DNA of 64,000 nt from Olivibacter domesticus (GTDB taxonomy: Bacteria; Bacteroidota; Bacteroidia; Sphingobacteriales; Sphingobacteriaceae): positions 372,001-436,000 of the forward strand of contig NZ_FOAF01000002.1 in assembly GCF_900109575.1 (NCBI RefSeq), given 5' to 3'. Under the pieces are notes generated by a model, which saw only the letters and a list, made by a program, of their open reading frames with translations, searched no databases and was not told the origin of the DNA. Position numbers and translations under genes: made by a program. Shown here piece by piece: positions 3,705 to 51,505 of the stretch; within the stretch, counting starts at the first letter, position 1, and each line of letters starts with the position of its first letter.

Positions 3705-3752
3705 CTATTTAAAAGGAAAATAGCACGAATAGGCTATTTTCCTTTTAAATAG
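3705..3752. terminator. Bidirectional hairpin terminator, perfect 20-bp stem
   Basis: CTATTTAAAAGGAAAATAGC at 3705-3724 pairs perfectly with its reverse complement at 3733-3752 around an 8-nt loop. It lies between convergent genes (stop of the symporter at 3701, stop of the PLP enzyme at 3770), so it can end transcription from both sides. Confidence 0.85.
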
Positions 3753-3769: not shown

Positions 3770-4987
3770 CTAAACAGCCGCACTTAAAACTTCTCTCACT
3801 TTTTTAGCAACAATCTCCTCTTGCCCTGGCTTCAACATCCAGGCAGTTAAAACAATCTTATTTTCCTCACTGCCACCAATCTCAATGGAGGGTTGTCCTC
3901 CTCTTAATTTTTGTTGCAATTCCTTGCCACTTGTCTTAACAAGATTTTTATCCCATGAGATATGTAAAGTAGGTGTAACATTTCCTAGCGGGGGAACTTT
4001 AATTTCAGTCGACACACCTTTAACGGTTTTAGCTGCAGTGGCAATTAAGTCTACCTGAGCCCTTTGCATAGCAAATTCCTTATCATGATCAAGGCTCATA
4101 AATTTCTCCAATGCTACATACATCCCCACAATCTCTTCCTTATTAATCTTCATCCCTCTACCAATATTGAATCCGCGAGGAGGCATATGCACTCTTGCAG
4201 CTTGTATATAAGCTTTCTTACCCATTAAAAGTCCGGCACTTTGCGGGCCACGAATGGCTTTTCCACCAGAAACACATACTAAATCAAAGCCCATATCATT
4301 AAACTTCCATAAATTCGAAACAGGAGGAACATCTGCCGCTATATCAATTAGGGTCGGGATACCGTGCTTCTTAGCGATGTCCACCCACTCTTGGTGCATT
4401 ATTTTTCCTTGATCAGATTGCACGTTTAAAAAGAACATCAGTGCAGTCTTGTCGTTAATAGCGTCTTCTAGTTCCTTGACAGTTTCTACCATTATAATCT
4501 TACACCCCGTATTTCTAAGTGCATGGCTATACACGATATTATGCCCTTTTTGGCAGATCACTTCCGATTTTAATCCTGTGCCTTCCAAATGAGGTAAAAG
4601 TGTAGCCTTTTCTTCACTAACACCGGTCAAGACGCCTGCTAAACCTAATGTCATAGCAGAAAAACAACCTGCAGTTACCACCGCAGATTCAGCATGAACT
4701 AGTTTTGCTATCTTCTCTCCTACCTTATCCTGTAGCTCATCGAGCATACAAAACTCAAGGGAGCTGCTATTAATGGCATCCATAACCTCGGCACGCATCA
4801 ATGAACCTGTCATTGCTGTATACGTTCCCGCAGCATTAATAAATGTGCGTACTCCCAATTCCTCAAATAGATTTCGATTTATTCCAGGAACGGGTGCAAA
4901 CACATGCTTATCAACTTCTACATACCTGCTTAGCATACTACTAGCAGGCATAACTGATAAATATTTAAGTAGTTCTCGTCTTCTCAT
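3770..4987 (-). CDS. Exported PLP-dependent enzyme of the SelA / D-glucosaminate ammonia-lyase-like family
   Basis: A 405-residue fold-type-I PLP enzyme. The Schiff-base lysine is probably K243 in VSGGKAIRGPQSAG, with a PLP-contacting Asp in PTLIDIAAD (about 215-219); this pattern is typical of the selA-related group that includes D-glucosaminate-6-phosphate ammonia-lyase (DgaE). The N-terminus (RRRELLKYLSVMPASSML) resembles a twin-arginine signal, which would suit export of a folded, cofactor-loaded enzyme; without a cleavage-site test this remains an inference. It is the last gene of the susC operon, 12 nt after the BASS carrier. Family members eliminate ammonia from amino acids or amino-sugar acids, giving an enamine/imine that fits the RidA encoded two genes upstream. 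Exact substrate unknown. Confidence 0.8.
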   Translation of the reverse strand: MRRRELLKYLSVMPASSMLSRYVEVDKHVFAPVPGINRNLFEELGVRTFINAAGTYTAMTGSLMRAEVMDAINSSSLEFCMLDELQDKVGEKIAKLVHAESAVVTAGCFSAMTLGLAGVLTGVSEEKATLLPHLEGTGLKSEVICQKGHNIVYSHALRNTGCKIIMVETVKELEDAINDKTALMFFLNVQSDQGKIMHQEWVDIAKKHGIPTLIDIAADVPPVSNLWKFNDMGFDLVCVSGGKAIRGPQSAGLLMGKKAYIQAARVHMPPRGFNIGRGMKINKEEIVGMYVALEKFMSLDHDKEFAMQRAQVDLIATAAKTVKGVSTEIKVPPLGNVTPTLHISWDKNLVKTSGKELQQKLRGGQPSIEIGGSEENKIVLTAWMLKPGQEEIVAKKVREVLSAAV

Positions 4988-4999
4988 TTTTATTGTTAA

Positions 5000-6118
5000 T
5001 TAATTTTTAACATCAACGTTTAAGGCTGTCACTTTTTCTTCCGGCAAAGGTTTTTGCTGCCAGTAAGAAGCTAATAGCGAGCCTGTAATATTCATAAGCG
5101 GACCAAAAATTGCTGGTGCTAAACCTACAGTGGCCAATTTTCCCATTTCTTTAGCAATACCCGAAGCTAAACCACCATTTTGCATACCAACTTCAATGGC
5201 CATCGTTCTGCAATCTTTTTCGGTCATTTTAAATAGTCTACCACAACCATATCCAAATAAATACCCGCATAAATTGTGAATCAAAACCAATAAGATCAGC
5301 TGAGGACCGATACTTAATAAACTGTCTCTCCCGGCAGCTGTAATAATGGCAATGATCAAGGCGATGCCACCCATAGACATTTTCGGCATAAAATGATCTA
5401 ACCACGCTATTTTTCCATGCAACAACTTATTAAAGAGTAAACCGAACCCGATCGGCAGAATCACCATTTTTAAAATATCCCACATCATATCGAGTAGGTT
5501 AATTTCTACAAATGCTCCTGCTAGGGCTTTCATAAGTAAAGGTGTTACCAAAGGTGATAATAGGGTGGATACTGCCGTAATGGTAATAGACAGCGGGAGA
5601 TTTGCCTTTGCCATATAAGACATTACATTGGAAGCCATACCGTTTGGAGAACATCCAATTAAGATAATCCCCGCAGCGATCTCCGGCGGAAATCCACTTA
5701 AATTAGCTAAGGTATACCCTATTAAAGGCATGATAAGGAAATGACTGAATACGCCAATAAAGACCCCTTTAGGATGTTTAATTATCCCTACAAAATCTTG
5801 CACGCTCATAGCGGTTCCCATACCGAACATGATGAGTTGGATTAAAGGGGTTATTAAATTGGCTAGCGTAAAGCCGTTTATCGTCAAAAAATATTGAGGA
5901 TAAAATAGCGCAAGACTTACCATCGCGAAGATGAGCAGCGAATAGGCATAACCTTTTAATAAGTTAATTCCCCTAAAAGCTAATGAGGTGGATAAGAAAA
6001 ACAGCACTACTAAAATGCCAATTGCATGCTGGATGTTAAACAGGTAACATAAGATGCTTAAACAGACACAGCATAGCGCGACAACCAAAGCACCTTTATA
6101 AAAAACACTTATTTTCAC
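5000..6118 (-). CDS. Bile acid:sodium symporter family (BASS) carrier
   Basis: A 372-residue membrane protein with roughly 10-12 hydrophobic segments. The sequence GCSPNGMASNVMSYMAKANL followed by LSPLVTPLL is the conserved BASS crossover region, and GMQNGGLASGIA is the second one. Two to three hydrophobic segments precede the usual BASS core, making it longer than compact bacterial members (about 300-320). The family moves organic anions with sodium; characterised members include bile-acid, pyruvate (plant BASS2) and ketopantoate-type carriers. Placed between RraA and the PLP enzyme, it could bring the keto-acid product of the periplasmic pathway into the cell. Direction and substrate are inferred. 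Confidence 0.87.
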   Translation of the reverse strand: MKISVFYKGALVVALCCVCLSILCYLFNIQHAIGILVVLFFLSTSLAFRGINLLKGYAYSLLIFAMVSLALFYPQYFLTINGFTLANLITPLIQLIMFGMGTAMSVQDFVGIIKHPKGVFIGVFSHFLIMPLIGYTLANLSGFPPEIAAGIILIGCSPNGMASNVMSYMAKANLPLSITITAVSTLLSPLVTPLLMKALAGAFVEINLLDMMWDILKMVILPIGFGLLFNKLLHGKIAWLDHFMPKMSMGGIALIIAIITAAGRDSLLSIGPQLILLVLIHNLCGYLFGYGCGRLFKMTEKDCRTMAIEVGMQNGGLASGIAKEMGKLATVGLAPAIFGPLMNITGSLLASYWQQKPLPEEKVTALNVDVKN

Positions 6119-6145
6119 GTTATTTTCAATTAAAAGGTTTAATTA

Positions 6146-7102
6146 TTACCAGGTCCTCTTTTTCATCAGCTCATCAAGCTGCGTTTTACTCATCTTCACT
6201 TGATCCTCATGCTGTTTCAACCACGACAAAAAATCACTTTTAATTTGATCGTCCCATTGATTATCAATTTGCCCGACGCTATAAGTACCCGATTTAATCC
6301 GTTCATTCCCAAAGGCATCCCTTAACTGAATAAATTCCGCCGTAACAATCACTTTTTCAGCCAAGTGGGCAGGAATAAACAAAGCTCCCTCTTTATTGGA
6401 AAGTACCAGATCACCTGGAAGAACAACCGCTTTCCCTATTCTTATGGGCGTATTAATCCCTATCAGCATAGATTCTTCGAGAAATGAAGGATGAAAGCCT
6501 CTTACAAAGGCATTAAAACCCTTTATTTCTTTTAAACCATTAAAATCCCGCACCGCTGCGTCAAAAACAACTCCATTTCCAGTACGATTAAAAATGGCAT
6601 TTCCAAGCGTTTGACCAATCAATGTACCCCCTGCAATCTTACCAAATCCGTCGGCTACATATACGTCGCCTTTCTGTAATAAATCAATTGGCCATGAATT
6701 GGTATTACCCTTTTTACCTTGGTTGTGTCCGCGCGTTAAAATAGATTTCTCAACGTCGGGTCTGCTGGGAATATACATGGCTGTAAGTGCCCGCCCAGCA
6801 ATCAGGGCATCCTCATGTAGCATTTGCCATCCTTGCTCAAATTGGTTATTATATCCCTCATTTCTTAAAATGGTCCATGCGTCATCAAAACCAATGGCAC
6901 GTGCACGCGTAATGAGCTCATCAGGTATTTTTGGGCGGCCATCGTCAAATCGTGCCCCACTCCATTCGGCTGTTAAGAATAATAACTCCTCCTTCGGAAT
7001 ATGCTGCGCAAAAACAATTGACTTTCCAGCAAAAAAGCATAAGCAAAAGCACCACCACAGTTTGCTAATCAGGTTCATAAAAGGTTTGCTTTTCTTAAAC
7101 AT
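6146..7102 (-). CDS. Exported RraA-family protein (aldolase/decarboxylase-like)
   Basis: A 318-residue protein: a hydrophobic Sec-like signal (residues about 10-32, ending VFAQ), about 100 residues of linker/helical region, then an RraA domain. The stretch GNGVVFDAAVRDFNGL carries the Arg-Asp pair (R185, D186) that is catalytic in HMG/CHA aldolases of this family, and KGDVYVADGFGKIAGGTLIG supplies the glycine-rich metal/substrate site. These aldolases cleave 4-hydroxy-2-oxoacids to pyruvate; others in the family only bind RNase E, but that role needs a cytoplasmic protein. The start overlaps the end of the RidA gene by 8 nt. The added signal peptide is unusual for the family. Confidence 0.8.
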   Translation of the reverse strand: MFKKSKPFMNLISKLWWCFCLCFFAGKSIVFAQHIPKEELLFLTAEWSGARFDDGRPKIPDELITRARAIGFDDAWTILRNEGYNNQFEQGWQMLHEDALIAGRALTAMYIPSRPDVEKSILTRGHNQGKKGNTNSWPIDLLQKGDVYVADGFGKIAGGTLIGQTLGNAIFNRTGNGVVFDAAVRDFNGLKEIKGFNAFVRGFHPSFLEESMLIGINTPIRIGKAVVLPGDLVLSNKEGALFIPAHLAEKVIVTAEFIQLRDAFGNERIKSGTYSVGQIDNQWDDQIKSDFLSWLKQHEDQVKMSKTQLDELMKKRTW

Positions 7103-7556
7103 AGGCTATACAGTCCATCTCTACTAATGAATCCCCCGGTACACCTCCATAAGTTGCCACGGTGGTGCGAACAGGAGGTTTGTTGCCGAAACGCCCCTTG
7201 TATACTTCATTCATGCTTTTATAGTCGCCTAAGTCTGCTAGATACACATTTACTTTCAGCACTTTTTCCATAGACGAGCCAGCTTTCTTAAGCTCAGTTT
7301 CAAGTTCTTTCAATACATGGTCTGTATGTGCTTTTATGTCTCCATCGAAATGTGCACCCTTACCTGCAACGAAGATTAACCCATTGTATTTCGTGGATCC
7401 TGAGAACAAGGGTACATCTTGGTGTTTGGTAACATTGAAGGCCTCCTTTTCAGTTGTCGAGGTACTAACGGCCGCTTTTGCAATGGTACTAGCCCCTGCA
7501 ATTCCAATTAACGAAGTGAATAATCGTTTTAGAACCGATCTTCTTTCTGTTTTCAT
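7095..7556 (-). CDS. Exported RidA-family (YjgF/YER057c) imine/enamine deaminase-like protein
   Basis: A 153-residue protein. The C-terminal 110 residues are a RidA domain: the substrate-carboxylate arginine is R130 in PPVRTTVATYGGVP and the acidic residue E146 lies in LVEMDCIAYV, so the active site looks intact. The first 30 residues (ERRSVLKRLFTSLIGIAG then AKAA) look like a Tat signal, whereas canonical RidA is cytosolic. RidA hydrolyses 2-aminoacrylate-type enamines made by PLP enzymes to keto acids plus ammonia. Its presence two genes from a PLP ammonia-lyase-like enzyme with a similar export signal suggests the two act in sequence in the periplasm. Confidence 0.85.
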   Translation of the reverse strand: MKTERRSVLKRLFTSLIGIAGASTIAKAAVSTSTTEKEAFNVTKHQDVPLFSGSTKYNGLIFVAGKGAHFDGDIKAHTDHVLKELETELKKAGSSMEKVLKVNVYLADLGDYKSMNEVYKGRFGNKPPVRTTVATYGGVPGDSLVEMDCIAYV

Positions 7557-7595
7557 AATAAATTTGTTTAATTGTTTAAAATTGAATTATTGTAT

Positions 7596-8855
7596 TTAAT
7601 GATGATTTCCTTTTTTTTGGAATACTACAGGGTTTGCTATTCCATTCAAATCATATACGATCTCCCCTGCTCTAATGGTCATTTCACAACCTAGCTTCTC
7701 CTTGCCTGCAATCTTAAATCCGGTATAATCAAAAAAACCAAAGTCTCCCTTTTGTAAGCCCAAAACCGCCACATCGGCCTCCGAGCCTACACTTAAACTT
7801 CCTAATGCTGGGCGTTTAATAATCTGGGCTGGTTGCCAAGTACTTGCAGCGATAACTTGCTGAAGGCTCATGCCCATTACCAGACATTTGGACATAACGC
7901 TTAGCATATCTTTCATGGCATTGTTCATACTACCGGTATGTATATCGGTACTAATAGCGTCTGGATAAAAGCCTTCGCGAATAGCTGGTATAGCTTGCGA
8001 AAAAGAAAAACTGATACCCCCATAACCAATATCAAAATAGCGCCCCTGTTTTCTGGCTTCCCAAGCAAATGGCTTGACTTTGTTTGCTGTAACATCTACA
8101 ATAGATTCGCGACCGTTTATTTGCGCAAAGCAGTGTGTTAAAATATCGCCTTTACGCAGGTGTTTAAGTAATAATTGGTCTAAAGGAAGCGGCGGATTGC
8201 TCCCTCCAAAGTCTACCATAACAGGTATTCCGCCCGCACGTTCGCCCGCTTCTACCGCATGGTCTACTATCGTCCAATCATGTCCTTCAAAATGCGCAAC
8301 TTTAAATCCTACCACGTAATCACGGTTCTGCTTGGCAACAAGTGCCGCCATCTTGGGGTCTGTATCGTTCAAATCTTGTTCATAAGCGCCGCCACGCATA
8401 CCTTCTCCAATGATATTTAAGAAAGCCAGCACCCTTGTTTTAGAATGATCAATGGTTTGATCTTTGTAAGTTTGAAAACTTTTCCAACCAGGACTGCCTG
8501 CATCTACTACTGTGGTTACACCAACGCGAAAGGTAAAACCATCTGGAGGTAAGGCGGTAAAGCTATTTCTAAGGTAGTTATATGGCTCCGTCCCAAAAAA
8601 ATGATGCGTATGGATATCTATTAATCCTGGGGTTACATATAAACCTTTTGCATCAACGGTCTGTAAAGCCGTTCCTTCTATCTGCTTGCCTACCTTTACT
8701 ATCTTGCCGTCATTAATAGCAACATCCATTATTTCATCGATATTATTCTTAGGGTCGATCACGTGCCCACCTTTTATTAATATGGCATATTCCTGGGTAT
8801 AGCCGCTAAACCAGCATAAACATAGGAAACTTATAAAAGCAATATAGGATTTCAT
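7596..8855 (-). CDS. Exported amidohydrolase/deacetylase metallohydrolase (EF_0837/AHA_3915-like)
   Basis: A 419-residue amidohydrolase-superfamily enzyme with an N-terminal signal (residues 1-20, FISFLCLCWFSGYTQ). The metal site is visible: HxH in DIHTHHF (H82, H84), a probable carboxylated lysine in VGFKVAHFEGHD (K185), a histidine in ILTHCF (H241) and Asp in AISTDIHTG (D304). Members similar to this are often encoded beside SelA-like PLP enzymes, as here, and are annotated as dihydroorotase-like deacetylases. It probably opens a ring or removes an acyl group from a nitrogenous substrate delivered by SusC/SusD. It starts 24 nt after susD, in the same operon. Confidence 0.85.
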   Translation of the reverse strand: MKSYIAFISFLCLCWFSGYTQEYAILIKGGHVIDPKNNIDEIMDVAINDGKIVKVGKQIEGTALQTVDAKGLYVTPGLIDIHTHHFFGTEPYNYLRNSFTALPPDGFTFRVGVTTVVDAGSPGWKSFQTYKDQTIDHSKTRVLAFLNIIGEGMRGGAYEQDLNDTDPKMAALVAKQNRDYVVGFKVAHFEGHDWTIVDHAVEAGERAGGIPVMVDFGGSNPPLPLDQLLLKHLRKGDILTHCFAQINGRESIVDVTANKVKPFAWEARKQGRYFDIGYGGISFSFSQAIPAIREGFYPDAISTDIHTGSMNNAMKDMLSVMSKCLVMGMSLQQVIAASTWQPAQIIKRPALGSLSVGSEADVAVLGLQKGDFGFFDYTGFKIAGKEKLGCEMTIRAGEIVYDLNGIANPVVFQKKGNHH

Positions 8856-8879
8856 TTTATAGTTTTTTAATTATTTAAA

Positions 8880-10427
8880 TCAATTTGCAACATCCCACCA
8901 TACCCGGCTCGTCAACGCATTGGTTCCTCCTTGCCTTTGCATGGCTTCCATGTAGTTCTCCCGATTATAACTTTCTTCTGTAAGTGGTACCACAAAACGT
9001 CTGGGAATTGTTCCCCCAGTTAAATTACCTGGGTAATTTGTTGGCGTTAAGCGTGGATAGCCCGTTCTTCTCCAATTCGCAAAAATTTCATATTCATCCT
9101 GCAAAAACAGTGAAACCCATAACTGAGTATATATCAACTCTAATTGTTCTTCCATACTTCCGGCAGCATTATAAGGGTGTTGTTTTAGATAATAGTCGAC
9201 TCTATCACGACTGATTTCACCATCTTGACCAAACAAAGCCCACTGGCTCATTCCCGCGCGCACAGCGATTTCATAAGTCTGCGCCGGATCACCATCATAC
9301 CAGCCTCTTATTGCAGCCTCCGTTAATAGGAGGTTCATTTCAGCATTCGTTAATACCAAATGCGGGGCATCAAATCGCAGAATAGTGTTCGGGTGGGGTT
9401 CAGAATAAGTAGCAAAGTCAGCAGGGAATGAATTAAACGCCGCATTTGGCATACCCTTTTGGATAGAACTGGTGGTATCTGCCACATAAGTTCCTGTTGC
9501 ATTCCGTACCCATACAACTGCGATGGCATTGAGTCTCGGATCATGCGTATTTTGCAGATGATCAATAAATGTTTTAGCTAATTTTCCTCCTTCAATATTG
9601 TCTACTGCTTGTGGATTTAAGTAATCAGTATTCAATAATGCCGTAGCAATAAAGTTCCGCTGCGCCACTTGTGAACCGTCCACATATTGAATGCGAGCCA
9701 ATTCATTATCATTCGTAATAACGCCTCCGGCAATAGCTTTTCTCACCCACTCTTCCGCCAGGTCAGGAGCAACTTTTGTTAGGCGCATACCTAAGCGCAG
9801 CATCAATGAATACGCAAATTTTTTCCATCTCGTAATATTTCCACCGTATATTAAATCACCATTCCCAAACGATGGAAAACTGGCATCTAAAGCTAAGGCC
9901 GACTCTTCTAGTTCTTTCAAAAGGTCATTATAAATATCTGCCTGTACATCATAACTCGGTGTGTAACTTTGGCTATCTGAGGCTAAACCGGCTGCCGTAT
10001 AGGGAATATCTCCATACAGGTCAGTCAATCTGTGAAAAATCAACACTTGCCATATACGCGCAATAGAAAGCTTATTGATATCATTAGGATTAGAAGAAAC
10101 GCCTTCAATAACTTTCTTGATCTCAATAACGGCGGTAGCATATGCATCCCAACTACCATATGATTGCGTTTCATTAAAATATTTATCGCCCGCAGCTGGT
10201 ACTTCTTTATAGGTAGCCGTTTGTTGCATCGCCCCACCAATTGTAAGATAGGCACTGCCTGCATAATTTACGCTTACAGCATCTAAAAGCGCCTTTGTAA
10301 ACATATATTCGGGCACCACCGTGGTAGAGGCATTAGGATTTACGTTCATCTCTTCAAACCCCTTATCACATGCTGATAGGATCAAAAGCGAAGAGAAAAT
10401 AAATGCATGTTTAAAGAATCTTTTCAT
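8880..10427 (-). CDS. SusD/RagB-family outer-membrane lipoprotein (SusD-like_2 type)
   Basis: A 515-residue nutrient-binding lipoprotein. The signal peptide ends in LILSAC with Cys20 as the lipid anchor, and the mature start DKGFEEMNVNPNAS is typical of the SusD-like_2 group. Helical TPR-like segments run through the middle, and the C-terminal region contains NWRRTGYPRLTP, a family hallmark. It caps the partner SusC barrel encoded 20 nt upstream. The group is associated as often with peptides, glycans or small nitrogen compounds as with starch, so substrate must be judged from the enzymes downstream. Confidence 0.93.
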   Translation of the reverse strand: MKRFFKHAFIFSSLLILSACDKGFEEMNVNPNASTTVVPEYMFTKALLDAVSVNYAGSAYLTIGGAMQQTATYKEVPAAGDKYFNETQSYGSWDAYATAVIEIKKVIEGVSSNPNDINKLSIARIWQVLIFHRLTDLYGDIPYTAAGLASDSQSYTPSYDVQADIYNDLLKELEESALALDASFPSFGNGDLIYGGNITRWKKFAYSLMLRLGMRLTKVAPDLAEEWVRKAIAGGVITNDNELARIQYVDGSQVAQRNFIATALLNTDYLNPQAVDNIEGGKLAKTFIDHLQNTHDPRLNAIAVVWVRNATGTYVADTTSSIQKGMPNAAFNSFPADFATYSEPHPNTILRFDAPHLVLTNAEMNLLLTEAAIRGWYDGDPAQTYEIAVRAGMSQWALFGQDGEISRDRVDYYLKQHPYNAAGSMEEQLELIYTQLWVSLFLQDEYEIFANWRRTGYPRLTPTNYPGNLTGGTIPRRFVVPLTEESYNRENYMEAMQRQGGTNALTSRVWWDVAN

Positions 10428-10447
10428 ATTATCTAAGGTCTTAATGA

Positions 10448-13400
10448 TTAAAATTTTACGATAAGATTTACACCAAAACTTCTGGTACGAGGAACACCAA
10501 ATGCTTCCAAGCCCTGCGCATTACTATTGGTATAGCTTGATTCTGGGTCAAAGTATTTATTGCGTTTATCTTTGTAGAGTGTAAGAAGATTCCGCCCCAC
10601 TAGCGATATCGTTGCTCCTTGCAATTTTGCCCAATGAAATTTCTCTATCGGCAGGTTGTAAGACAATATCACTTGCCGTAGTTTGACAAAATCATTGTCA
10701 AACATGAACATGGATGTATAAAATTTGTCATTATCATAATAAGTATCAATATCTTTTGGCTCCCATGTTTTACTGAAAGCGGCACCACTTTGATCTACTC
10801 CTGTAACTGTTAAACCGGCTTCTCTACCGGGCAGTGTTTCTGTCGGCAAACCGAACCGATAAGCATACTGATAAAGATTAGAATACATCATCCCCCCAAA
10901 TTTTCCATCTATGAGCACATTCAGCGAGAAGTCTTTATAGCTAAACGTATTATTAAGTCCCATTATCAACGGAGGCACCCCTTGTCCTATTTCTTCAAGT
11001 GGACCACGAACGGCATAGCCGCTCTCCGCGTTATATACCGTCTGACCATTCTGATCTGTTAATTTTCTATATCCCCATAAAGCACCGTAGGGCCTGCCCA
11101 CTACGTTACGTATGCTACCTCCACCAACACCGTCACCCACCACAATAGCGTCTAATCCATCTGCAAGTTGCTGAATCTCACTTTTGTTATACGAAACATT
11201 ATAGCTTACATCCCAATTGAAATTTTCCGTCTTAATAGGCTTACCACTTAATAAAACTTCTATTCCTCTATTGTTTAATTCACCTACATTAAGTAGTGCC
11301 CTATTATAGCCCGAAGCTTGCGAAATATTGGATTCTACAATATCATCGGTAGTTTTACGATTATAGAAAGTTAAGTCAGCACCGAAACGACCATCAAAAA
11401 ATTGGGCATCCACACCAAATTCGTACGTAGTAGAAGTTAATGGTCTTAAGCCCGGATTATTTACTAAATCTGAAGTAAGCTCTTGAACGGGACGCCCATT
11501 ATGGCCACCTTGCACCATAGAATATGTTTCATTCAAAATATAAGCCGTTGGTGTCGCTCCGCCAACTTGCGCCCACGAACCACGGAGCTTCAAACCACTG
11601 ACGGCCTTAGGCATATGCAACGCTTCTGATAACACCAACGTTCCTCCAACAGAAGGATAAAATATACTGTTATTCTGTGAGCTCAATGTTGAGAACCAGT
11701 CCTGACGGCCCGTGAAGGTCAGGTAGGCCAGTCCCTTATAGCCTATATCGGCAGAACCAAAAAGGGAGTTGATACCTGTTTTTTGATAAAGAGGGGTTGT
11801 TGTTAAAATATTTAAATTCGTATAGCTATAGAAATACGGAACGGTAAATTCACTTCCCGCAATAGTGGTTAAATCATATTCATTTCGTTGAATATTACCA
11901 CCCCCCATAGCAGATAGGCTAAAATCATTGAAAGTAGTATTGTAATTCAGGGTTAACATGTAGTTAGTTTCTGATGAAGTTGCCTTAAGGCTCTCGTAAG
12001 AACCTAAAGGTCGGAAGGCGGTGCCCGTAGGCTGGATCGCCTCACTTTCAGAACTGTAGAAATCACGACTTGCACTCCCCTTAATAAATAGATTATCTAA
12101 AATATCATATTGCAAATTACCTTGCATGATGAAACGATCTTTTTTGTCGCTATTCTCATAACGATTAACCACAAACCATGAGTTTGGAGCTTCAGCAACA
12201 GGGTTCCACCTTACTTCATTACCATTTGCATCATAACCGGGCGCTAGTGACATAATGTCTACCGTATTGGCAAGCATATAAACTGCCCAAGCAGCATTAT
12301 CGTTTGCATAACCTACCTTTGGCCTATTTTTACCATGATCGTAATTGTATTGTGACACCGCTTCTAGATGTAATTTCTTTCCTATGTTAGCATTTACAGA
12401 CATATTGGTCGTCAATCTTTTGTAGGTAGAGTTTGGCACAATGGCTTGCGCATCGGTGTTTGACACACTCGCTCGATACCTGACCGCTTCATTTCCGCCA
12501 TTTAGCGCTAAAGAATTAATATAGGTCTGCCCAGTTTCATAAAATTGTTTAGGATTATTAGTAACTGGTGAGTATGGTCTTTCAACGCCATCAAACTGGA
12601 CATAAGGTGAACCATCCATTTTTGCTCCATAAGACAGTCTTCCAGTAGCAATCGCTTCCTCCTGAGTCGTCGGCTTTTTCCCATCAACACCCTGCCCATA
12701 TTCATATTGCCACTCCGGGTAAGTAGACGGGCGTTCAAATGTAGACGAACTATTAAATTCTATACCTATACCCTTCTGTGCAATACCTTTTTTGGTGGTA
12801 ATAAGAATCACTCCATTAGCCGCACGTGAACCATATAAGGCGGAGGCAGGACCTCCTTTTAGTACACTGATACTTTCAATATCATCCGGGTTTATGCCCG
12901 CAATACCGTCACCACGGTCAATATTCCACCCCATTCCTCCTGAGCTTGTACTTCCGCCAGGGGTAGAATTATCCATTGGCATTCCATTAATCACATATAA
13001 AGGTTGGTTATTTCCACTTAATGAGCCGTTTCCACGTATGATCACTCTACTTGATCCGCCCGGTCCCGTAGCCATTCCTGAGACGTCTACACCAGCCACT
13101 TTACCAACCAAAGCATTCGCCACATTCACCTCTTTTGCCTGTGTAAGCTGTTCACCGCCCACTTCTGCTACTGAATACGCAAGTGCTTTCTTCGATCTAG
13201 AAATCCCCAAAGCAGTCACAACAACCTCATTAAGCGCCTGATTATCTTCAGATAATTGTACATTAACAATGTTTTTACCATTGATAGTGATGGATTGTGT
13301 TACATATCCCATATAACTAAATTCAAGTTCCCCGGTATTGGTAACTTTCAATACATAATTGCCTTCCGCATTCGTAACGGTTCCCTTTGTTGAGTTTTTT

Positions 13401-13837
13401 AGGCGTACACTTACACCAGGTATCGCTTGCCCTTTTCCATCGGTAACGGTTCCTTTTATATCTATGTCTTGAGGAATGGCATTTTTTTCGTTTTGAGCCA
13501 ATACGATACGATTTTCAATTACGTTATAGGTGATATTATGAGCACTTAGTAATTCATCGAATATCTTTTGTAAAGGCTGTTGATTCGCTTCTATTGAAAC
13601 TACCTGATTTAGATCTACAACTTGCTTGGAATAAATAAATTTTATATCAGCCTTACTTTCAATTAGTTTCAGAGCATTTATTAAGGTCTCACCCTTAATC
13701 GACAGAGATATGCGCTTGGTAAGACTTAGTTTAATTTCGGGTTGCTTGGAATAAGCCATAAAAATGCTCCCCACGAAAAGGGATAAACCTAGAGCAAAGA
13801 TTCTTATATAATCAGCTTTTTTCAGGTTGACACTCAT
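10448..13837 (-). CDS. SusC/RagA-family TonB-dependent transporter with STN signalling domain
   Basis: A 1129-residue outer-membrane barrel. After the signal/hydrophobic start (residues about 10-30) comes an STN domain (about 45-118, beginning RISLSIKGETLINALKLI), then a carboxypeptidase-regulatory-like domain (about 128-210), a plug (about 215-345, with GNGSLSGNNQPLYVINGMPM and PDDIESISVLKGGPASALYG) and the barrel. The STN domain marks it as a receptor that signals to the FecR anti-sigma factor encoded upstream, so the operon should be induced by its own substrate. The 192-nt gap after fecR holds an AT-rich palindrome. Confidence 0.95.
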   Translation of the reverse strand: MSVNLKKADYIRIFALGLSLFVGSIFMAYSKQPEIKLSLTKRISLSIKGETLINALKLIESKADIKFIYSKQVVDLNQVVSIEANQQPLQKIFDELLSAHNITYNVIENRIVLAQNEKNAIPQDIDIKGTVTDGKGQAIPGVSVRLKNSTKGTVTNAEGNYVLKVTNTGELEFSYMGYVTQSITINGKNIVNVQLSEDNQALNEVVVTALGISRSKKALAYSVAEVGGEQLTQAKEVNVANALVGKVAGVDVSGMATGPGGSSRVIIRGNGSLSGNNQPLYVINGMPMDNSTPGGSTSSGGMGWNIDRGDGIAGINPDDIESISVLKGGPASALYGSRAANGVILITTKKGIAQKGIGIEFNSSSTFERPSTYPEWQYEYGQGVDGKKPTTQEEAIATGRLSYGAKMDGSPYVQFDGVERPYSPVTNNPKQFYETGQTYINSLALNGGNEAVRYRASVSNTDAQAIVPNSTYKRLTTNMSVNANIGKKLHLEAVSQYNYDHGKNRPKVGYANDNAAWAVYMLANTVDIMSLAPGYDANGNEVRWNPVAEAPNSWFVVNRYENSDKKDRFIMQGNLQYDILDNLFIKGSASRDFYSSESEAIQPTGTAFRPLGSYESLKATSSETNYMLTLNYNTTFNDFSLSAMGGGNIQRNEYDLTTIAGSEFTVPYFYSYTNLNILTTTPLYQKTGINSLFGSADIGYKGLAYLTFTGRQDWFSTLSSQNNSIFYPSVGGTLVLSEALHMPKAVSGLKLRGSWAQVGGATPTAYILNETYSMVQGGHNGRPVQELTSDLVNNPGLRPLTSTTYEFGVDAQFFDGRFGADLTFYNRKTTDDIVESNISQASGYNRALLNVGELNNRGIEVLLSGKPIKTENFNWDVSYNVSYNKSEIQQLADGLDAIVVGDGVGGGSIRNVVGRPYGALWGYRKLTDQNGQTVYNAESGYAVRGPLEEIGQGVPPLIMGLNNTFSYKDFSLNVLIDGKFGGMMYSNLYQYAYRFGLPTETLPGREAGLTVTGVDQSGAAFSKTWEPKDIDTYYDNDKFYTSMFMFDNDFVKLRQVILSYNLPIEKFHWAKLQGATISLVGRNLLTLYKDKRNKYFDPESSYTNSNAQGLEAFGVPRTRSFGVNLIVKF

Positions 13838-13898
13838 AATTCATTAATTAGATGGTTAAAATTTGGACAATAAGCTTCCACTCCAATTGCCTTAAAAG

Positions 13899-13920
13899 AT
13901 ATTTTATATATATAAAATAT
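13899..13920. promoter_or_regulatory. Perfect 22-bp AT-only palindrome ahead of susC
   Basis: The 22 bases from 13899 to 13920 equal their own reverse complement and contain only A and T. The element sits 62 bp upstream of the susC start and 110 bp beyond the fecR stop. It could be part of the promoter driven by the cognate ECF sigma factor, or a weak attenuating hairpin; AT-only palindromes also arise by chance more often in AT-rich spacers. Confidence 0.35.
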
Positions 13921-14029
13921 TACAATTGAACTATATAATACTAAATATTAAATATTAGTTAATTAACAATGCGTAGTTTAAGTTTTCATAGACTGCATTT
14001 TTTAATATTCTGGTGAAAATGGATGTTTT

Positions 14030-15070
14030 TTATTTCTTTTTAAGCAGTATTCTGTCTCCGGAAACCTCATACTGCAGATTAAGCGATTGACTCATTATTT
14101 CCATAATGGAAAGCAAATTAAGTTGTTTAAAGTCGGCCGTTAAGGTGTAGTTGTTTAATCTTGTATCATTCAATTCTATTTGGACCTTAAACGCGTTATT
14201 TAATGTATCAACAATTACTTTTAACGGCGTGTCTTCAAAAGAAATATTCTTTCGCCTCCACATTCCTACAGAAGAATCCTCTGTTTCTTTTGCTTTAACT
14301 AATTTCGTTTTCTGTTTACTAAAAGAAACTTTCTGATCGGCTACTAATAATACTTCCTGTGTTTGGCTCTCTTTCTGTACCAATGCTTTTTCAAGCAAAT
14401 TTTGACTTTGCGATTGACTAACGGAAACCATTCCAGTAATAACAGAAACTTCTTCTCCTGCCTGCTCATCAGTTTTAATACGAAAACTGGTACCCAGCAC
14501 CTTCGTTGTTAAGGCACCGCTACTGATAATAAAGGGTCTATTTTTATCTTTAGCTATTTCAAAGAAAATTTCACCTGCCATGGATAATTCCCTTCCATCT
14601 TGTTGAAAATTGGCTGAATATTCCACAGTAGATTTAGGATTTAACCAAATGATACTGCCGTCGGGTAGTTTATGCTTCATGATGGTTTTCGTCTTATTTT
14701 CTACCAAAACTACCTTTGTAGAAATTCCAAGCACATTCATTAACTGCCCTTGAAAGAGTACGATTGCTACCACCAATAGGAATAATGCAGCCACCCCCAT
14801 AAATAACCTAATGGAATACCTATTAGATCGTATCTTATGAATTTCAGTAGCGGTCGACTTCGCTACAGAAGTAGAAATGCCCGACTTATGTTTTATATTC
14901 TGCAACATACGCAAGCGTATATCATCACGTTTTCTTAAGGCACTCATTTCCGAATTTGACCAGTTATCACCGATCGACTTATACCAATCCTCAACGATAC
15001 TCGCCTCTTCAGGACTGCACGTTTTATCTAAATATCTTTTTAATAACGCTTCGGAAATTTCTTCTTTCAT
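14030..15070 (-). CDS. FecR-family anti-sigma factor
   Basis: A 346-residue inner-membrane signal transducer. The N-terminal about 85 residues are the cytoplasmic sigma-binding part (EEISEALLKRYLDKTCSPEEAS is typical of Bacteroidota FecR), followed by one membrane helix (LFMGVAALFLLVVAIVLF, about 90-107), a FecR domain (about 125-225, with HKLPDGSIIWLNPKSTVEY) and a C-terminal STN-like/DUF4974 domain (about 272-345, beginning ISFEDTPLKVIVDTLN). It receives the signal from the STN domain of the downstream SusC and releases the ECF sigma encoded 115 nt upstream. Confidence 0.93.
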   Translation of the reverse strand: MKEEISEALLKRYLDKTCSPEEASIVEDWYKSIGDNWSNSEMSALRKRDDIRLRMLQNIKHKSGISTSVAKSTATEIHKIRSNRYSIRLFMGVAALFLLVVAIVLFQGQLMNVLGISTKVVLVENKTKTIMKHKLPDGSIIWLNPKSTVEYSANFQQDGRELSMAGEIFFEIAKDKNRPFIISSGALTTKVLGTSFRIKTDEQAGEEVSVITGMVSVSQSQSQNLLEKALVQKESQTQEVLLVADQKVSFSKQKTKLVKAKETEDSSVGMWRRKNISFEDTPLKVIVDTLNNAFKVQIELNDTRLNNYTLTADFKQLNLLSIMEIMSQSLNLQYEVSGDRILLKKK

Positions 15071-15185
15071 CTTCGGTCTCTTAAAGCCTTCGTTAATATA
15101 TGTCTTGCAACATGGGCGTATCCCCTACTCTATCTTTAAAAAAAACATCTTTTTTTAAAATATTTATCTAAAATGACTATGCGAA

Positions 15186-15764
15186 TTAATAAAAGAGTAG
15201 AAAAACATATATAATTAGCGCTTTGACGGCAATTTTTAATCTACCAAGCGCTTTCGTGAGTTGGTTTTCAACAGTTTTTTCAGAGATTCCAAGCAAATCA
15301 GCAATCTCTTTGTTTGTCTTAAATTCCTTCCTGCTCAATTCATAAATGTATCTACACTTTTCGGGCAGCAATCGAACATGTGATTCTATCTGCTCTTGAA
15401 GTTCATTAAATGAGATGATCATCTCAGTAGAATTATCAACATCTTTAAAACTACCTTTGACATAAGATTTATAATTATTTCTCACAAGTTCCTTCTGAAG
15501 ATAACTTAAAACCAAGTATCTTACCGAAGTAAACAGGTAACCACTTATAGAGCTATGTATGGTAATTTTTTGACGGTTTAACCAAATACTTGTAAATAAA
15601 TCTTGTATTATTTCTTCTGCTATTTCCGCCTTTCTAAGGCGTTTAAAAGCCTCTGCATAGAGCTTATACCAATATCGATTGTATAGTTCTTCAAATGAAG
15701 CTTCATTACCATCAATGCAGGCCCTGAAAAGATTTTCATCAGAAAACTTAGTTAAATCTTGCAT
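15186..15764 (-). CDS. ECF RNA polymerase sigma factor (FecI-like, Bacteroidota type)
   Basis: A 192-residue sigma-70 factor. Region 2 spans about residues 18-90 (FEELYNRYWYKLYAEAFKRL to IIQDLFTSIWLNRQ), and region 4 about 125-180, with a helix-turn-helix in TNKEIADLLGISEKTVENQL. It heads the sigma-FecR-SusC-SusD arrangement and most likely transcribes susC and the catabolic genes behind it. A 12-bp palindrome CTGTTGCAACAG at 15812-15823 lies 48 bp upstream of the start and may be an operator for this gene. Confidence 0.93.
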   Translation of the reverse strand: MQDLTKFSDENLFRACIDGNEASFEELYNRYWYKLYAEAFKRLRKAEIAEEIIQDLFTSIWLNRQKITIHSSISGYLFTSVRYLVLSYLQKELVRNNYKSYVKGSFKDVDNSTEMIISFNELQEQIESHVRLLPEKCRYIYELSRKEFKTNKEIADLLGISEKTVENQLTKALGRLKIAVKALIIYVFLLFY

Positions 15765-40622: not shown

Positions 40623-42242
40623 ATGCAAAATACCGCTAACAAGAACCATTATTCACTGAACCGCGATTTAAATATTGACGAAATAACCCAAATCGATCGT
40701 TGGGATATTGCCATTATAGGGGGTGGAGCAACCGGACTAGGCATTGCAGTAGACGCGGCCAGTAGAGGATACAAAACCTTATTAGTAGAACAATCAGATT
40801 TCGCAAAGGGTACATCCAGCAGAAGCACAAAATTAGTACATGGAGGAGTGCGGTATCTTGCACAAGGAGATATAAAGCTTGTATACAGCGCATTAAAGGA
40901 ACGGGGTATCCTTTTTAAAAATGCACCGCACCTAGCGCACGTTCAAAGTTTCATTATACCTTGCTATACTTTATTCGCCAAACTGAAATTTCTAATAGGT
41001 TTGAAAATATATGATTGGATGGCTGGCAAATATCGCATTGGTAAATCTTCCTTGCTATCCAAAGAACGCGTATCAAACTTAATACCCGAAGTAAGGCAAT
41101 CTCAACTGAAAGGGGGCATAGAATACTTTGATGGGCAATTTGATGATGCACGATTAGCAATTAATCTTGCGCAAACAGCTAGTCAATATGGCGCTACCCT
41201 ATTAAATTATGCAAAAGTTACGGCGCTAAAAAAAGACAATAACGGAAAAATAAAAGGATTTACGTTCGTTGACAAGGAAAGTAACGAATCGTATACTATT
41301 CATGCAAAGACTGTCATCAATGCCACTGGTGTATTTGTAGATGAAATCTTAACACTTGCACATCCTAATCATAAACCCATGGTTCGACCAAGTCAGGGTG
41401 TCCACATAGTGGTAGAACGTTCTTTCCTTGGAGGCAAAAGCGCTCTCATGATTCCCGAAACAAGTGATGGCCGCGTACTTTTTGGTGTGCCCTGGCATAG
41501 CCACCTTGTATTAGGCACGACAGATACTCCCCTCAATGAGCACAGTTTAGAACCACGTGCACTCGACACGGAAATTGATTTTATTTTAAACACTGCAGGT
41601 GAATATCTAAACAGGAAACCAACAAGGAATGATGCCTTAAGTATCTTTGCCGGACTTAGGCCGCTGGCAGCGCCTACCGACGATAAAGAAAGCACCAAAG
41701 AAATTTCGCGCGACCATAAATTGATTGTAAGCGATGAAGATCTTATCACCATTACGGGAGGAAAGTGGACGACCTATCGAAAAATGGCAGAAGAAACGGT
41801 AAATCAAGCCATCAAAACAGGGCAACTTCCCCCTGCTCCCTGTAAAACAGTCAATATAAAAATACACGGGGCAGAGAATCAAACAGCGCAAGGCCATTGG
41901 GCTGTTTACGGGTCAGACGCGGAGCCTATCAAATCGCTCATTATTGACGACGATCGTTTAGCACAGCAATTACATCCACGACATGCACATATAGGTGCAG
42001 AAGTAGTTTGGGCTGTTCGACATGAAATGGCCAGAACGGTGGAGGATGTTTTAGCCAGAAGAATGCGCATACTTTTCTTGGATGCTCGTGCAGCTATAGA
42101 AATGGCACCAAAAGTTGCGCAATTAATGTCTGACGAACTTCATAAAGACGATTCATGGATTCGCCAACAAATTGCCAGCTTCAATGATTTAGCCAATGGT
42201 TATCTAGCGGAACCTTTTTACTCAAAAACAACCGATTCATAA
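40623..42242 (+). CDS. glpD: FAD-dependent glycerol-3-phosphate dehydrogenase
   Basis: A 539-residue flavoenzyme. The FAD motif is IAIIGGGATGLG (about residues 30-39), followed by SSRSTKLVHGGVRYL, a hallmark of aerobic GlpD, and a C-terminal DAO_C domain (about 400-520, with GAEVVWAVRHEMARTVEDVLARRMR). It oxidises glycerol-3-phosphate to dihydroxyacetone phosphate, passing electrons to quinone at the inner membrane. First gene of the glp operon. Confidence 0.95.
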   Translation: MQNTANKNHYSLNRDLNIDEITQIDRWDIAIIGGGATGLGIAVDAASRGYKTLLVEQSDFAKGTSSRSTKLVHGGVRYLAQGDIKLVYSALKERGILFKNAPHLAHVQSFIIPCYTLFAKLKFLIGLKIYDWMAGKYRIGKSSLLSKERVSNLIPEVRQSQLKGGIEYFDGQFDDARLAINLAQTASQYGATLLNYAKVTALKKDNNGKIKGFTFVDKESNESYTIHAKTVINATGVFVDEILTLAHPNHKPMVRPSQGVHIVVERSFLGGKSALMIPETSDGRVLFGVPWHSHLVLGTTDTPLNEHSLEPRALDTEIDFILNTAGEYLNRKPTRNDALSIFAGLRPLAAPTDDKESTKEISRDHKLIVSDEDLITITGGKWTTYRKMAEETVNQAIKTGQLPPAPCKTVNIKIHGAENQTAQGHWAVYGSDAEPIKSLIIDDDRLAQQLHPRHAHIGAEVVWAVRHEMARTVEDVLARRMRILFLDARAAIEMAPKVAQLMSDELHKDDSWIRQQIASFNDLANGYLAEPFYSKTTDS

Positions 42243-42284
42243 TGTTATAAATTTTCTTTGCTAACTTACAAACCTGAAATTTAT

Positions 42285-43799
42285 ATGACTGATAAGAAAT
42301 ATATACTTGCATTAGACCAAGGAACAACTAGTTCAAGAGCTATTATTTTTGATCGTGCTGGACAAATCATCTCCGTTGGCCAAAAAGAATTTAACCAGAT
42401 TTATCCTAAATCTGGCTGGGTAGAACATGATCCGCGTGAAATATGGTCATCTCAAATCGCCGTAGTGGCAGAAGCCTTGGTGAAAGCCGACATTAAATCT
42501 GCCGATATTGCTGCGATTGGAATAACAAACCAACGGGAAACAACTATCGTATGGGACCGGGAAACAGGACGACCAATTCATAACGCAATTGTATGGCAAG
42601 ATAGGAGAACAGCATCTTATTGCGACGAATTAAAGGCAAAAGGCTACGATGAAAAAATCAAAGAGAAAACGGGGTTATTGATAGACTCCTATTTTTCTGC
42701 CACAAAAATACGTTGGATATTAAAGAATGTAGAAGGTGCAAAAAAGAAAGCAGAAGAGGGTAACCTTTTATTTGGAACAGTAGACACTTGGCTAATCTAT
42801 AACCTTACGGATAAAGAAAAGCATGTCACGGATGTAACGAACGCTTCTCGCACTATGCTGTTTAATATTAATAACATGCAATGGGATGAAGAGTTATTAG
42901 CATTATTTGAGATCCCTAAAAGCATGCTTCCCGAAGTAAAAACTTCCAGTGAAGTATATGGTGAAACGGCTGGCAAAATATTGACCGATAAAATACCAAT
43001 TGCAGGCATTGCGGGCGACCAACAGGCGGCACTTTTTGGTCAATTATGCATAAATCCCGGCATGGTAAAAAACACCTACGGTACAGGATGTTTCATGCTT
43101 ATGAATATAGGAAATAAACCTATCGTTTCTAAAAACAAGCTTGTTACGACCGTAGCTTGGCAAATTGGCAAAGAAGTGACCTATGCTCTTGAAGGCAGTA
43201 TCTTCATCGCTGGAGCCATTGTGCAATGGTTGCGGGATGGCTTAGGAATCATTAAATCATCTGAGGAAGTAGAAGCATTAGCAAACAAGGTAACAGATAC
43301 AGATGGCGTTTATTTGGTTCCTGCATTTGCCGGCCTGGGGGCACCTCATTGGGACTCTTATGCGCGCGGAACAATAGTAGGTTTAACTAGGGGAAGTAAT
43401 GCCTCACATATCGCTCGAGCAGCACTAGAAGGAATTGCATTTCAAACAGTTGATATCCTCAAAGCGATGGAAGCAGATGCCGGAAAGGAAATAAAAGAAC
43501 TGCGTGTTGATGGCGGCGCCACTAACAACAATTTATTAATGCAATTCCAATCAGACATTTTACAGGCCAAGGTTGTCAGGCCCAAGATTACAGAAACCAC
43601 CGCTATTGGCGCTGCGTATCTGGCTGGCTTGGCAGTGGGCTATTGGAAGGATATGGACGACTTAAAAGGTCAATGGCAGATTGATAGAACATTCGACCCA
43701 GATAGTAAAATGGATGTAAAAAAGCATCTAAAAAATTGGCATCATGCTGTAGAAGCAGCAAGAGCTTGGGCCAAACTTGAATCAAAAAATGATGAATAA
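42285..43799 (+). CDS. glpK: Glycerol kinase
   Basis: A 504-residue FGGY-family kinase. The ATG at 42285 gives the canonical start [19 protein letters not shown]; the longer frame begins with TTG at 42258. [35 protein letters not shown] and AYGTGCF-type sequence ([13 protein letters not shown]) are present, as is the C-terminal RVDGGATNN motif ([17 protein letters not shown]). It makes glycerol-3-phosphate for GlpD. It follows glpD by 42 nt. Confidence 0.96.
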
Positions 43800-43816
43800 A
43801 GCGAAAAGTAGAGAGC

Positions 43817-43835
43817 GAAAAGCTTAAAGCTTTTC
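43817..43835. terminator. Short hairpin after glpK
   Basis: GAAAAGCTT (43817-43825) pairs with AAGCTTTTC (43827-43835), leaving a single-base centre. It has no long T tract, so it may only weaken read-through into glpF. Confidence 0.45.
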
Positions 43836-43840
43836 ATCAT

Positions 43841-43890
43841 GACATTCGTCTCCCCGAGCGGAATTGAAGCGTCTCTTGAAATATTTCGAC
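43841..43890. repeat. Decayed interspersed repeat of the GAGCGGAGTCGAAG type
   Basis: The segment contains CCCCGAGCGGAATTGAAGCG followed by TCTCTTGAAATATTTCGAC. It resembles, with some changes, an interspersed element that I recall as frequent in intergenic DNA of Bacteroidota (core GAGCGGAGTCGAAGGG). No coding function. Confidence 0.45.
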
Positions 43891-43923
43891 ATCAATGTGT
43901 TAAGCTTATTCTGACAACCCAAT

Positions 43924-43986
43924 AACAAACAAAAAATAACCAATAACAGATAACAAACAACCAGTAACTAATAAAGAATAACCAAA
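43924..43986 (+). repeat. Nine 7-bp units directly upstream of glpF
   Basis: The units AACAAAC, AAAAAAT, AACCAAT, AACAGAT, AACAAAC, AACCAGT, AACTAAT, AAAGAAT and AACCAAA follow without a phase break, ending 2 bp before the glpF ATG at 43989. On the minus strand the frame reads a periodic Tyr/Trp/Leu/Phe pattern, which is only a translation artefact of the repeat. Confidence 0.8.
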
Positions 43987-43988
43987 TT

Positions 43989-44723: not shown

Positions 44724-44951
44724 TGGTCAGAAAAATCAGAAAGAAAACGTAAAAATATTTTACGAGAACAAATACTTTTAATTTTTAACCAATTATCCTG
44801 CTTTAGGCCCTCCCTATTAATGCAGACATTATATTAACAATTTCTTAATACCATATTAACCATTTACAAACCTAACTGCACTAACATTGCAGCTTTCATT
44901 TTGATGCTAAAAAACAACAAACGCATCACAGCTTAACTTAAATGAAATATT

Positions 44952-48038: not shown

Positions 48039-48070
48039 CACATTATTTTACATTCATAAAAATTTGAAAT

Positions 48071-49642: not shown

Positions 49643-49753
49643 TTTAATAAAATAATATCAAAATCTTAACAATAGCGATTAAGCAATTACCCGTGTTTTA
49701 CTTGAATATTTGTAATTTGCTTAATCGTTTTTAAACAACATAATAAAAAAATA

Positions 49754-50533: not shown

Positions 50534-50539
50534 CTGGTC

Positions 50540-51493: not shown

Positions 51494-51505
51494 ATAAAAT
51501 AAATT

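Follow-up and report, generated by a model that had tools for sequence, protein, structure and literature searches.

Within a window of 64,000 nucleotides from Olivibacter domesticus (the window being the whole stretch of DNA that was analysed; the host genome is 6.78 Mb in size), a run of nine genes on the minus strand at positions 3770-15764 was analysed and is interpreted as an exported, i.e., periplasmic, catabolic operon for an amino-sugar acid. It would be controlled by an extracytoplasmic function (ECF) sigma factor and a FecR-type anti-sigma factor and fed by a SusC/SusD pair, and on the strength of its genes and their relatives we consider this reading somewhat probable. Gene content, conserved signals of the twin-arginine translocation (Tat) and Sec types, intact catalytic residues, and co-occurrence at the genome level were observed. 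An initial annotation had described a whole degradation pathway in the periplasm at this site, and its interpretation is partly supported overall. All nine genes that it named were found on this strand in the order and families given there, with open reading frame (ORF) coordinates and profile searches in agreement, including a pyridoxal phosphate (PLP) enzyme as the last gene:

15186..15764, minus strand: ECF sigma factor of the Bacteroidota type (TIGR02985, 144.3 bits, cut-off 126.4)
14030..15070, minus strand: FecR-type anti-sigma factor (PF04773 and PF16344, above cut-off)
10448..13837, minus strand: SusC-type TonB-dependent transporter with STN domain (TIGR04056, 677.6 bits, and PF07660 STN, both above cut-off)
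8880..10427, minus strand: SusD-type outer-membrane lipoprotein (PF12771, 254.5 bits, above cut-off)
7596..8855, minus strand: amidohydrolase of the COG3964/PRK09237 kind with Sec-like start (NF006689, 443.1 bits, cut-off 371)
7095..7556, minus strand: RidA with Tat-type signal (PF01042, 68.4 bits, cut-off 27.3)
6146..7102, minus strand: RraA/HMG-aldolase-like protein with Sec-like start (PF03737, 59.4 bits, above cut-off)
5000..6118, minus strand: BASS-family carrier (SBF; PF01758, 126.3 bits, above cut-off)
3770..4987, minus strand: DgaE-like PLP enzyme with Tat-type N terminus (TIGR01437, 180.5 bits, below the cut-off of 385.3)
3705..3752, minus strand: terminator-like stem-loop closing the operon (stem of 20 pairs with a loop of 8)

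Export signals were called as Tat-type where two Arg residues (RR) lay at most 14 residues from a possible start and were followed by a hydrophobic stretch, and the rule was applied to homologues of at least 40% identity. Among Bacteroidota homologues, all 113 PLP enzymes and 71 of the 72 RidAs carried a Tat-type motif (110/110 and 66/67 after merging of identical proteins, three regions having been represented twice). Control sets gave matches in 31/815 unrelated ORFs from those regions, in 0/40 ECF/GntR proteins, and in 5.1% and 1.4% of shuffled N termini. By the same rule, signals were assigned to 100 of 108 amidohydrolases and 23 of 25 RraA-like proteins, nearly all of them Sec-like, and the ten proteins of these two families that were missed by the rule are also signal-peptide-like by eye. 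The signal starts noted initially on all four enzymes are thus borne out in relatives at the motif level, where predicted export of the PLP enzyme and RidA is well supported.

Within the window, RidA has a textbook Tat-type start, MKTERRSVLKRLFTSLIGIAGASTIAKA, with a rule score of 1.66. The PLP enzyme has the RR motif (MRRRELLK), followed by a short, weak hydrophobic part with no clear AxA site by eye; as its own signal is weak and the RR is invariant in relatives, its predicted export rests chiefly on the latter. The RR at positions 3 and 4 was invariant in all 20 sequences of an alignment that drew its PLP enzymes from 13 genomes. It was likewise invariant in 31/31 sequences comprising the window enzyme and 30 from a set of 77 named loci (see below), and most of the approximately 30 residues that follow it are hardly alignable. 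In the AlphaFold model of the window enzyme, residues 1-4 and 6-35 have a pLDDT below 50 and the fold begins near residue 38-40; residue 3 of the D-glucosaminate-6-phosphate ammonia-lyase (DGL) structure 7LC0 aligns to residue 38. TatC is encoded in the window genome. Tat export of a folded PLP enzyme to the periplasm is known from PvdN of Pseudomonas, the role of which is in siderophore maturation and not in catabolism. An alternative in which the PLP enzyme and RidA remain cytoplasmic, with the RR arising by chance or acting as an inner-membrane tether, would agree with the weak hydrophobic part of the window PLP signal; it has against it the motif frequencies relative to the 815 control ORFs, the invariance of the RR within an otherwise variable N-terminal extension, and the same Tat-type starts on an Acidobacteriota plasmid (described below), and we regard it as very unlikely.

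Co-occurrence was determined in a family draw of 201 genomes, searched for the PLP enzyme and the exported RidA at an E-value of 1e-30, and in a phylum draw of 395 genomes from 171 genera (E-value 1e-80 for the PLP enzyme and 1e-35 for RidA). The family draw yielded the PLP enzyme in 31 genomes and the exported RidA in 32; all 31 genomes with the PLP enzyme have RidA, and the additional RidA-only genome (G156) is 68% complete. In the phylum draw, both proteins were found in the same eight genomes, representing seven genera. Since genera g3, g4, g15, g16, and g21 mix genomes with both genes and genomes with neither, gain or loss of the pair is joint. Gene neighbourhoods were read in 77 named loci, i.e., the best matches to the PLP enzyme alignment with up to 10 kb to each side, some of which end early at contig ends. 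An amidohydrolase was present in 71 of these loci, RidA in 58, SusC in 31, a BASS carrier in 21, and RraA in 16. The conserved co-occurrence anticipated by the initial annotation was hence recovered, and of the pathway members that it had listed, RraA and BASS proved to be optional rather than core. A wider scan returned 558 stretches encoding a relative of the PLP enzyme, some of which are not exported. The closest named relative of the window enzyme in that scan is that of Olivibacter jilunii (Sphingobacteriaceae), at 75% identity.

A striking expansion of PLP paralogues was seen. At least nine matches each were found in genomes of 2.3-4.3 Mb, namely in G085, G097, G103, G108, G113, G118, G123, G128, G133, G138, G148, and G152 (g21) and in G068 (g4), seven in G042, and four in G091; several of the paralogues that were read have their own SusC/SusD pair.

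The best NCBIfam matches of the window PLP enzyme are two DgaE models, both below cut-off (TIGR01437, 180.5 bits; NF047797, 145.6 bits with a cut-off of 600), and the enzyme matches the SelA Pfam family PF03841 at 28.8 bits, above the gathering cut-off of 22.8. SelA proper was ruled out at 33.4 bits against a cut-off of 267.9 (TIGR00474). By these scores, DgaE is a closer relative of the enzyme than SelA proper is, so that only the DgaE side of the SelA/DgaE-like label given initially is retained. Sequence matching likewise gave 121 bits for DGL and 74 bits for Cap15. The window enzyme shares with DGL/DgaE of the Salmonella dga pathway the fold, the Schiff-base Lys, and an alignment over residues 38-373; DGL differs in having no N-terminal extension, in using a 6-phosphate made by the phosphotransferase system (PTS), and in having His162/163 and Arg301/332.

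In the alignment of the 20 PLP enzymes to 7LC0, the Schiff-base Lys of the SGxK motif is kept in 20/20 (Lys243 in the window enzyme). The columns of the phosphate-binding Arg301 and Arg332 of DGL hold Arg in only 1/20 and 2/20, with Thr and Gly in the window enzyme (Arg346 of DGL fell outside the alignment compared). The proton donor His163 and its neighbour His162 are missing in 20/20, and none of the 113 PLP homologues has HH in its loop region. The roles of these residues were taken from PMC9529869, in which the Schiff-base Lys is printed as 217 (chain index 213) and the numbers of His162, His163, Arg226, Arg301, and Arg332 agree. According to that paper, the H163A mutant of DGL is still active and releases the enamine, which is called potentially cytotoxic. 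Loss of the phosphate Arg residues together with loss of the His residues would fit an unphosphorylated substrate and release of an enamine, both of which would be anticipated for a periplasmic enzyme that has RidA as a constant partner.

It was also considered that the PLP enzyme is an oxygen-dependent PLP oxidase rather than a lyase, RidA then handling the resulting imine. The nearest solved fold to the model is indeed Cap15 (8T7J, titled as an oxygen- and PLP-dependent enzyme; Z 34.4, root-mean-square deviation (rmsd) 3.0, 337 aligned), ahead of 7LC0 (Z 32.6, rmsd 4.6, 334 aligned) and of a threonine aldolase in third place (Z 23.4). However, the sequence match to DGL is the stronger one, the best NCBIfam matches are DgaE models, albeit below cut-off, and Cap15 has retained Arg301, Arg332, and His163 at columns where the exported enzymes have mostly lost them; an oxidase is accordingly judged improbable. 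Besides the enzymes treated here, a longer PLP class with ORFs of approximately 520-580 residues, 34-39% identical to the window enzyme, was seen at L046:5662-7251 and at many sites in genomes of the family. It has a Tat-like start in the copies that were read, and the C-terminal part of the L046 protein gave no Pfam match.

The catalytic positions of the amidohydrolase are conserved in an alignment of 109 sequences that includes the window protein and one gapped sequence, with H82, H84, H241, and D304 kept in 108 and K185 in 106 (Arg in two). Position 215, the beta-5 metal-ligand position, is Asp in 104 and Glu in four of the 109. Its COG3964 relatives 2ICS and 2OGJ, which we take to be EF0837 and Atu3266, match over the whole or nearly the whole length (E-values 9e-46 and 3e-43) and share the HxH, Lys, His, and Asp positions; the window protein differs from both in its predicted export and in the Asp/Glu that replaces the beta-5 His. 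We propose it as the N-deacylase of an amino-aldonate. In RidA, Arg130, presumably the catalytic Arg, is shared by at least 95% of the 72 homologues; the subgroup model TIGR00004 is matched at 64.7 bits, below its cut-off of 106.25. RidA is proposed to be the enamine/imine hydrolase.

The RraA-like protein belongs to the RraA/HMG-aldolase superfamily by its PF03737 match, its fold, and the R185-D186 pair, which is invariant in 14 sequences. Its model lies nearest to 5X15 (RraAS2; Z 21.7, rmsd 2.6, 194 aligned), tied with 5IR2 (Z 21.2) and 3K4I (Z 20.8), with the HMG/CHA aldolase 3NOJ in fourth place (Z 19.9, rmsd 3.2, 198 aligned). Classical short RraA proteins are farther away (Z of approximately 12-14). 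The Arg-Asp pair is shared with 5X15 and 3NOJ, from which the window protein differs in its predicted export and its longer N- and C-terminal parts; it scores below every NCBIfam cut-off listed. It is a proposed 2-keto-3-deoxy acid aldolase, and the BASS protein is a proposed inner-membrane importer of the product acid. The carrier was found in 13 of 16 RraA loci and in 8 of the 61 other loci (Fisher p 4e-7, kinship ignored).

Relatives add oxidation and lactone-opening steps that go beyond the sequence on which the initial annotation was based. Among the commonest extra neighbours is a glucose/sorbosone dehydrogenase (GSDH)-like protein of approximately 580 residues that also contains a cytochrome c domain; its 55 ORFs, spread over 51 loci, all have CxxCH. 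The GSDH-like dehydrogenase with cytochrome c was counted in 47 of the 77 loci, or 48 if each ORF was labelled by its best match. Other common neighbours are small cytochromes c accompanied by another GSDH-like protein, and CBM9-like proteins. Lactonases of the PF10282 (seven-bladed) type were found in 22 of the 77 loci, SMP-30-type proteins in 5, either in 27, and the dehydrogenase together with either in 23. In nine genomes, six of which were already known to have the dehydrogenase at the locus, 10 of 12 full-length copies of the dehydrogenase lay within approximately 3 kb of an amidohydrolase gene; 0 of 7 shorter copies lay near one, and none was on a contig with one. A kinase of the DGOK type (2-keto-3-deoxy-galactonokinase) was present in 6/77 loci and a 2-keto-3-deoxy-6-phosphogluconate (KDPG) aldolase in 5/77. 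A mutual exclusion of RraA loci and kinase/KDPG-aldolase loci was evaluated and was not significant (1/16 vs 5/61). Eight proteins of 518-522 residues in eight loci, confirmed by Pfam in L109 and L117, are fusions of a seven-bladed lactonase with a YjgF/Rid domain:

L109:133-1695, lactonase-Rid fusion
L114:7957-9513, lactonase-Rid fusion
L117:3941-5506, lactonase-Rid fusion
L118:7891-9459, lactonase-Rid fusion
L125:7919-9481, lactonase-Rid fusion
L126:7080-8645, lactonase-Rid fusion
L127:7890-9458, lactonase-Rid fusion
L131:7916-9481, lactonase-Rid fusion

A second, stand-alone Rid protein of approximately 180 residues, which gives a YjgF-type match and starts in a Sec-like way, also looks exported and occurs in 10/77 loci (e.g., L053:10758-11294). 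In L050:8898-16745 and L052:1-8923, the PLP enzyme, amidohydrolase, a 2-keto-3-deoxygluconate (KDG)-type kinase, KDPG aldolase, and an MFS-like carrier are encoded in a single run, and L052 additionally encodes a sulfatase (PF00884). Variant cassettes lie near PLP, amidohydrolase, or BASS genes at L048:11710-15594, L053:13892-17199, and L054:15420-18761; they encode proteins of one cluster, of which the L048 member is a gamma-glutamyltranspeptidase (PF01019), and a protein that we take to be MlrC-like, judging from its start.

Because of these neighbours in relatives, the candidate substrate was sharpened to an amino-sugar acid. The same exported enzymes could instead use beta-hydroxy amino acids or N-acyl D-amino acids, derived for instance from peptides or from fragments of the cell wall, by deacylation, dehydration, hydrolysis by RidA, and import of the keto acid by the BASS carrier. 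RidA proteins act on amino-acid enamines, the window operon is without a glycoside hydrolase, and three of 20 regions (L048, L053, and L054) have the one-cluster proteins near the PLP gene, the tested one being the gamma-glutamyltranspeptidase. In addition, as some genomes hold at least nine copies of the PLP enzyme, substrates probably vary or are several. The sugar-dehydrogenase-like, lactonase, and KDG-type kinase/aldolase neighbours nonetheless suit sugar acids better, and the DgaE-type relative uses a sugar acid; we therefore consider amino acids of this kind an unlikely main substrate, although one to be taken seriously, and other hydroxy amino acids are possible substrates. The neighbours bear as well on a role in detoxification or signalling, in which the signals would be real and RidA and RraA would clear reactive intermediates from the envelope. 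RidA is known for enamine clearance; yet the SusC/SusD pair, the sigma/anti-sigma pair, the carrier, and the dehydrogenase and lactonase neighbours typify a nutrient pathway, and with its patchy presence (31/201 genomes) such a role is held to be extremely unlikely.

The gene set is not peculiar to Bacteroidota, since it is carried by plasmid pACIX902 of Granulicella tundricola (Acidobacteriota). The run on pACIX902 comprises RraA, the PLP enzyme, RidA, a second PLP protein, the amidohydrolase, and a lactonase, after which come a BBE-type FAD protein, a hypothetical protein, and one whose annotation places it in the beta-galactosidase family. Both the PLP enzyme, starting MANTLDQLTRRRFLGWSQALLAAFS, and RidA, starting MNTQSRRGLLKNAAAAAAAITTG, have Tat-type N termini.

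For the amino-sugar-acid pathway, we infer every reaction, the substrate, the order of steps, and the cargo of the carrier as follows. SusC/SusD would import the substrate or an oligomer carrying it. Many relatives would then use a cytochrome-c-linked sugar-dehydrogenase-like protein together with a lactonase to make the aldonic acid; the window genome has such genes outside the operon, namely a dehydrogenase relative (71-72%) and two lactonases, along with two KDPG aldolases, of which one adjoins a DGOK relative and the other presumably sits in a hexuronate-like locus. The exported amidohydrolase would strip the N-acyl (probably acetyl) group, and the Tat-exported PLP enzyme would eliminate water from the unphosphorylated amino-aldonate, releasing an enamine/imine that the Tat-exported RidA would hydrolyse to 2-keto-3-deoxy-aldonate and ammonia. 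The exported RraA-like aldolase may split the latter acid into pyruvate and an aldehyde, with import of the acid by BASS; in relatives without RraA, the keto acid would be imported and passed to a kinase and KDPG aldolase. We tentatively propose that an entire oxidative route for amino sugars of this kind operates in the periplasm, both in many Bacteroidota and in some Acidobacteriota. It would comprise a dehydrogenase and lactonase that make the N-acetyl amino-aldonate, an exported deacylase, a Tat-exported PLP lyase that lacks the phosphate site and the proton-donor His and so would free the enamine, and a RidA likewise exported by Tat, joined in some loci by another Rid fused to the lactonase; this wider proposal falls just short of what we would call probable.

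The initial annotation knew of no described system of this form. For the exported form this stands, as no exported RidA/DgaE-like cluster was found described in the literature searched, the coverage of which excluded bioRxiv and most subscription-journal papers; a cytoplasmic pathway of the same logic, however, has been published. According to PMC9537276, the ong cluster of Pseudoalteromonas prydzensis converts N-acetyl-glucosaminate (GlcNAc1A) via glucosaminate to KDG, and its RidA-family gene ongD is essential for growth on N-acetyl-glucosaminate, the role of OngD being called unknown there. The ong cluster resembles the window operon in combining, at the level of enzyme class, a deacetylase/amidohydrolase, a PLP enzyme, and a RidA in a single cluster and in having TonB-dependent receptors. 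It differs in that OngB and OngC are predicted to be cytoplasmic, whereas the window-type enzymes have Tat- or Sec-type signals (by motif), and in its own features of GlcNAc1A entry by an SSS carrier, KDG kinase as the next step, and regulation by OngR. OngB is described as a D-aminoacylase-type amidohydrolase in PMC12017989, and its structure 9KB1 matches the window amidohydrolase over residues 26-86 only (E-value 1.8e-4). Because of the export signals and the different deacylase subgroup, the window operon is regarded as ong-like in logic but not as a member of the ong type.

Several points weigh against the proposed exported amino-sugar-acid operon. The signal calls come from a purpose-made motif rule rather than from SignalP or TatP, and the window PLP enzyme passes the Tat part narrowly (0.94 with a threshold of 0.9). 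The Sec part recovers 58/89 SusC/SusD signals and fires on 360/815 other ORFs, of which many look like envelope proteins; alone it therefore says little for the amidohydrolase and RraA. The co-occurrence statistics ignore kinship of the genomes, many of the 77 best-matching loci come from few genera, and RraA is missing from all but 16 of them. No dehydrogenase, lactonase, or glycoside hydrolase is present in the window operon, and among 20 regions of its own family the dehydrogenase was found in four, an SMP-30-type protein in two, and a PF10282 lactonase in none. The GSDH match is itself weak (PF07995, 22.2 bits, below the cut-off of 25), and the BBE protein of pACIX902 has no signal as annotated. 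For the PLP enzyme, besides Cap15 being the nearest fold, the Arg301 column holds Lys in two of 20 sequences, and the DGL loop is shorter in the exported enzymes, making the alignment uncertain there. Two relatives without signal weaken the notion that a RidA partner is needed wherever His163 is lost, in a comparison for which three of 240 plasmid records were examined: a Rhizobium protein keeps HH and adjoins a RidA gene, and a haloarchaeal protein is devoid of HH with no RidA annotation inside 7 kb. Finally, OngC yields KDG and ammonia in vitro without its RidA, according to PMC9537276.

With respect to the layout of the operon, the stem-loop at 3752-3705 lies directly past the PLP gene. The intergenic distances in the order from the ECF to the PLP gene are 115, 192, 20, 24, and 39 bases, an overlap of 8 bases (RidA/RraA), and 27 and 12 bases, and the first two, between ECF and FecR and between FecR and SusC, leave room for internal promoters. 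Promoter-like sites, taken as consensus matches, were at chance level at the operon (34 vs 38.0 in shuffles). Of the hallmarks of a polysaccharide utilization locus, the SusC/SusD pair is present, and a Pfam profile search revealed no glycan-cutting enzyme among the nine genes. Elsewhere in the window, positions 40623-52189 hold a possible locus for the use of glycerophosphodiesters, with a glycerol-3-phosphate oxidase-like protein, an MIP channel, and GDPD, HAD, and GDSL proteins, among which sit two ORFs of the size of SusC and SusD (judged by size only).

PLP-dependent catabolic enzymes and RidA are generally considered cytosolic. If a PLP-RidA pair is conserved, regulated, and exported, the periplasm would have to be added to the sites of PLP catabolism and enamine chemistry. 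The Tat route of both proteins would also be explained, since they would be exported folded and loaded with cofactor. If this is true, toxic enamines and ammonia would be kept outside the cytoplasm. The proposal gives a testable function to many genes that have no more than the names aminotransferase class V-fold, RidA family, or RraA family protein, and it suggests a route by which oxidised amino sugars may serve Bacteroidota with no need for a PTS or for phosphorylation at an early step.

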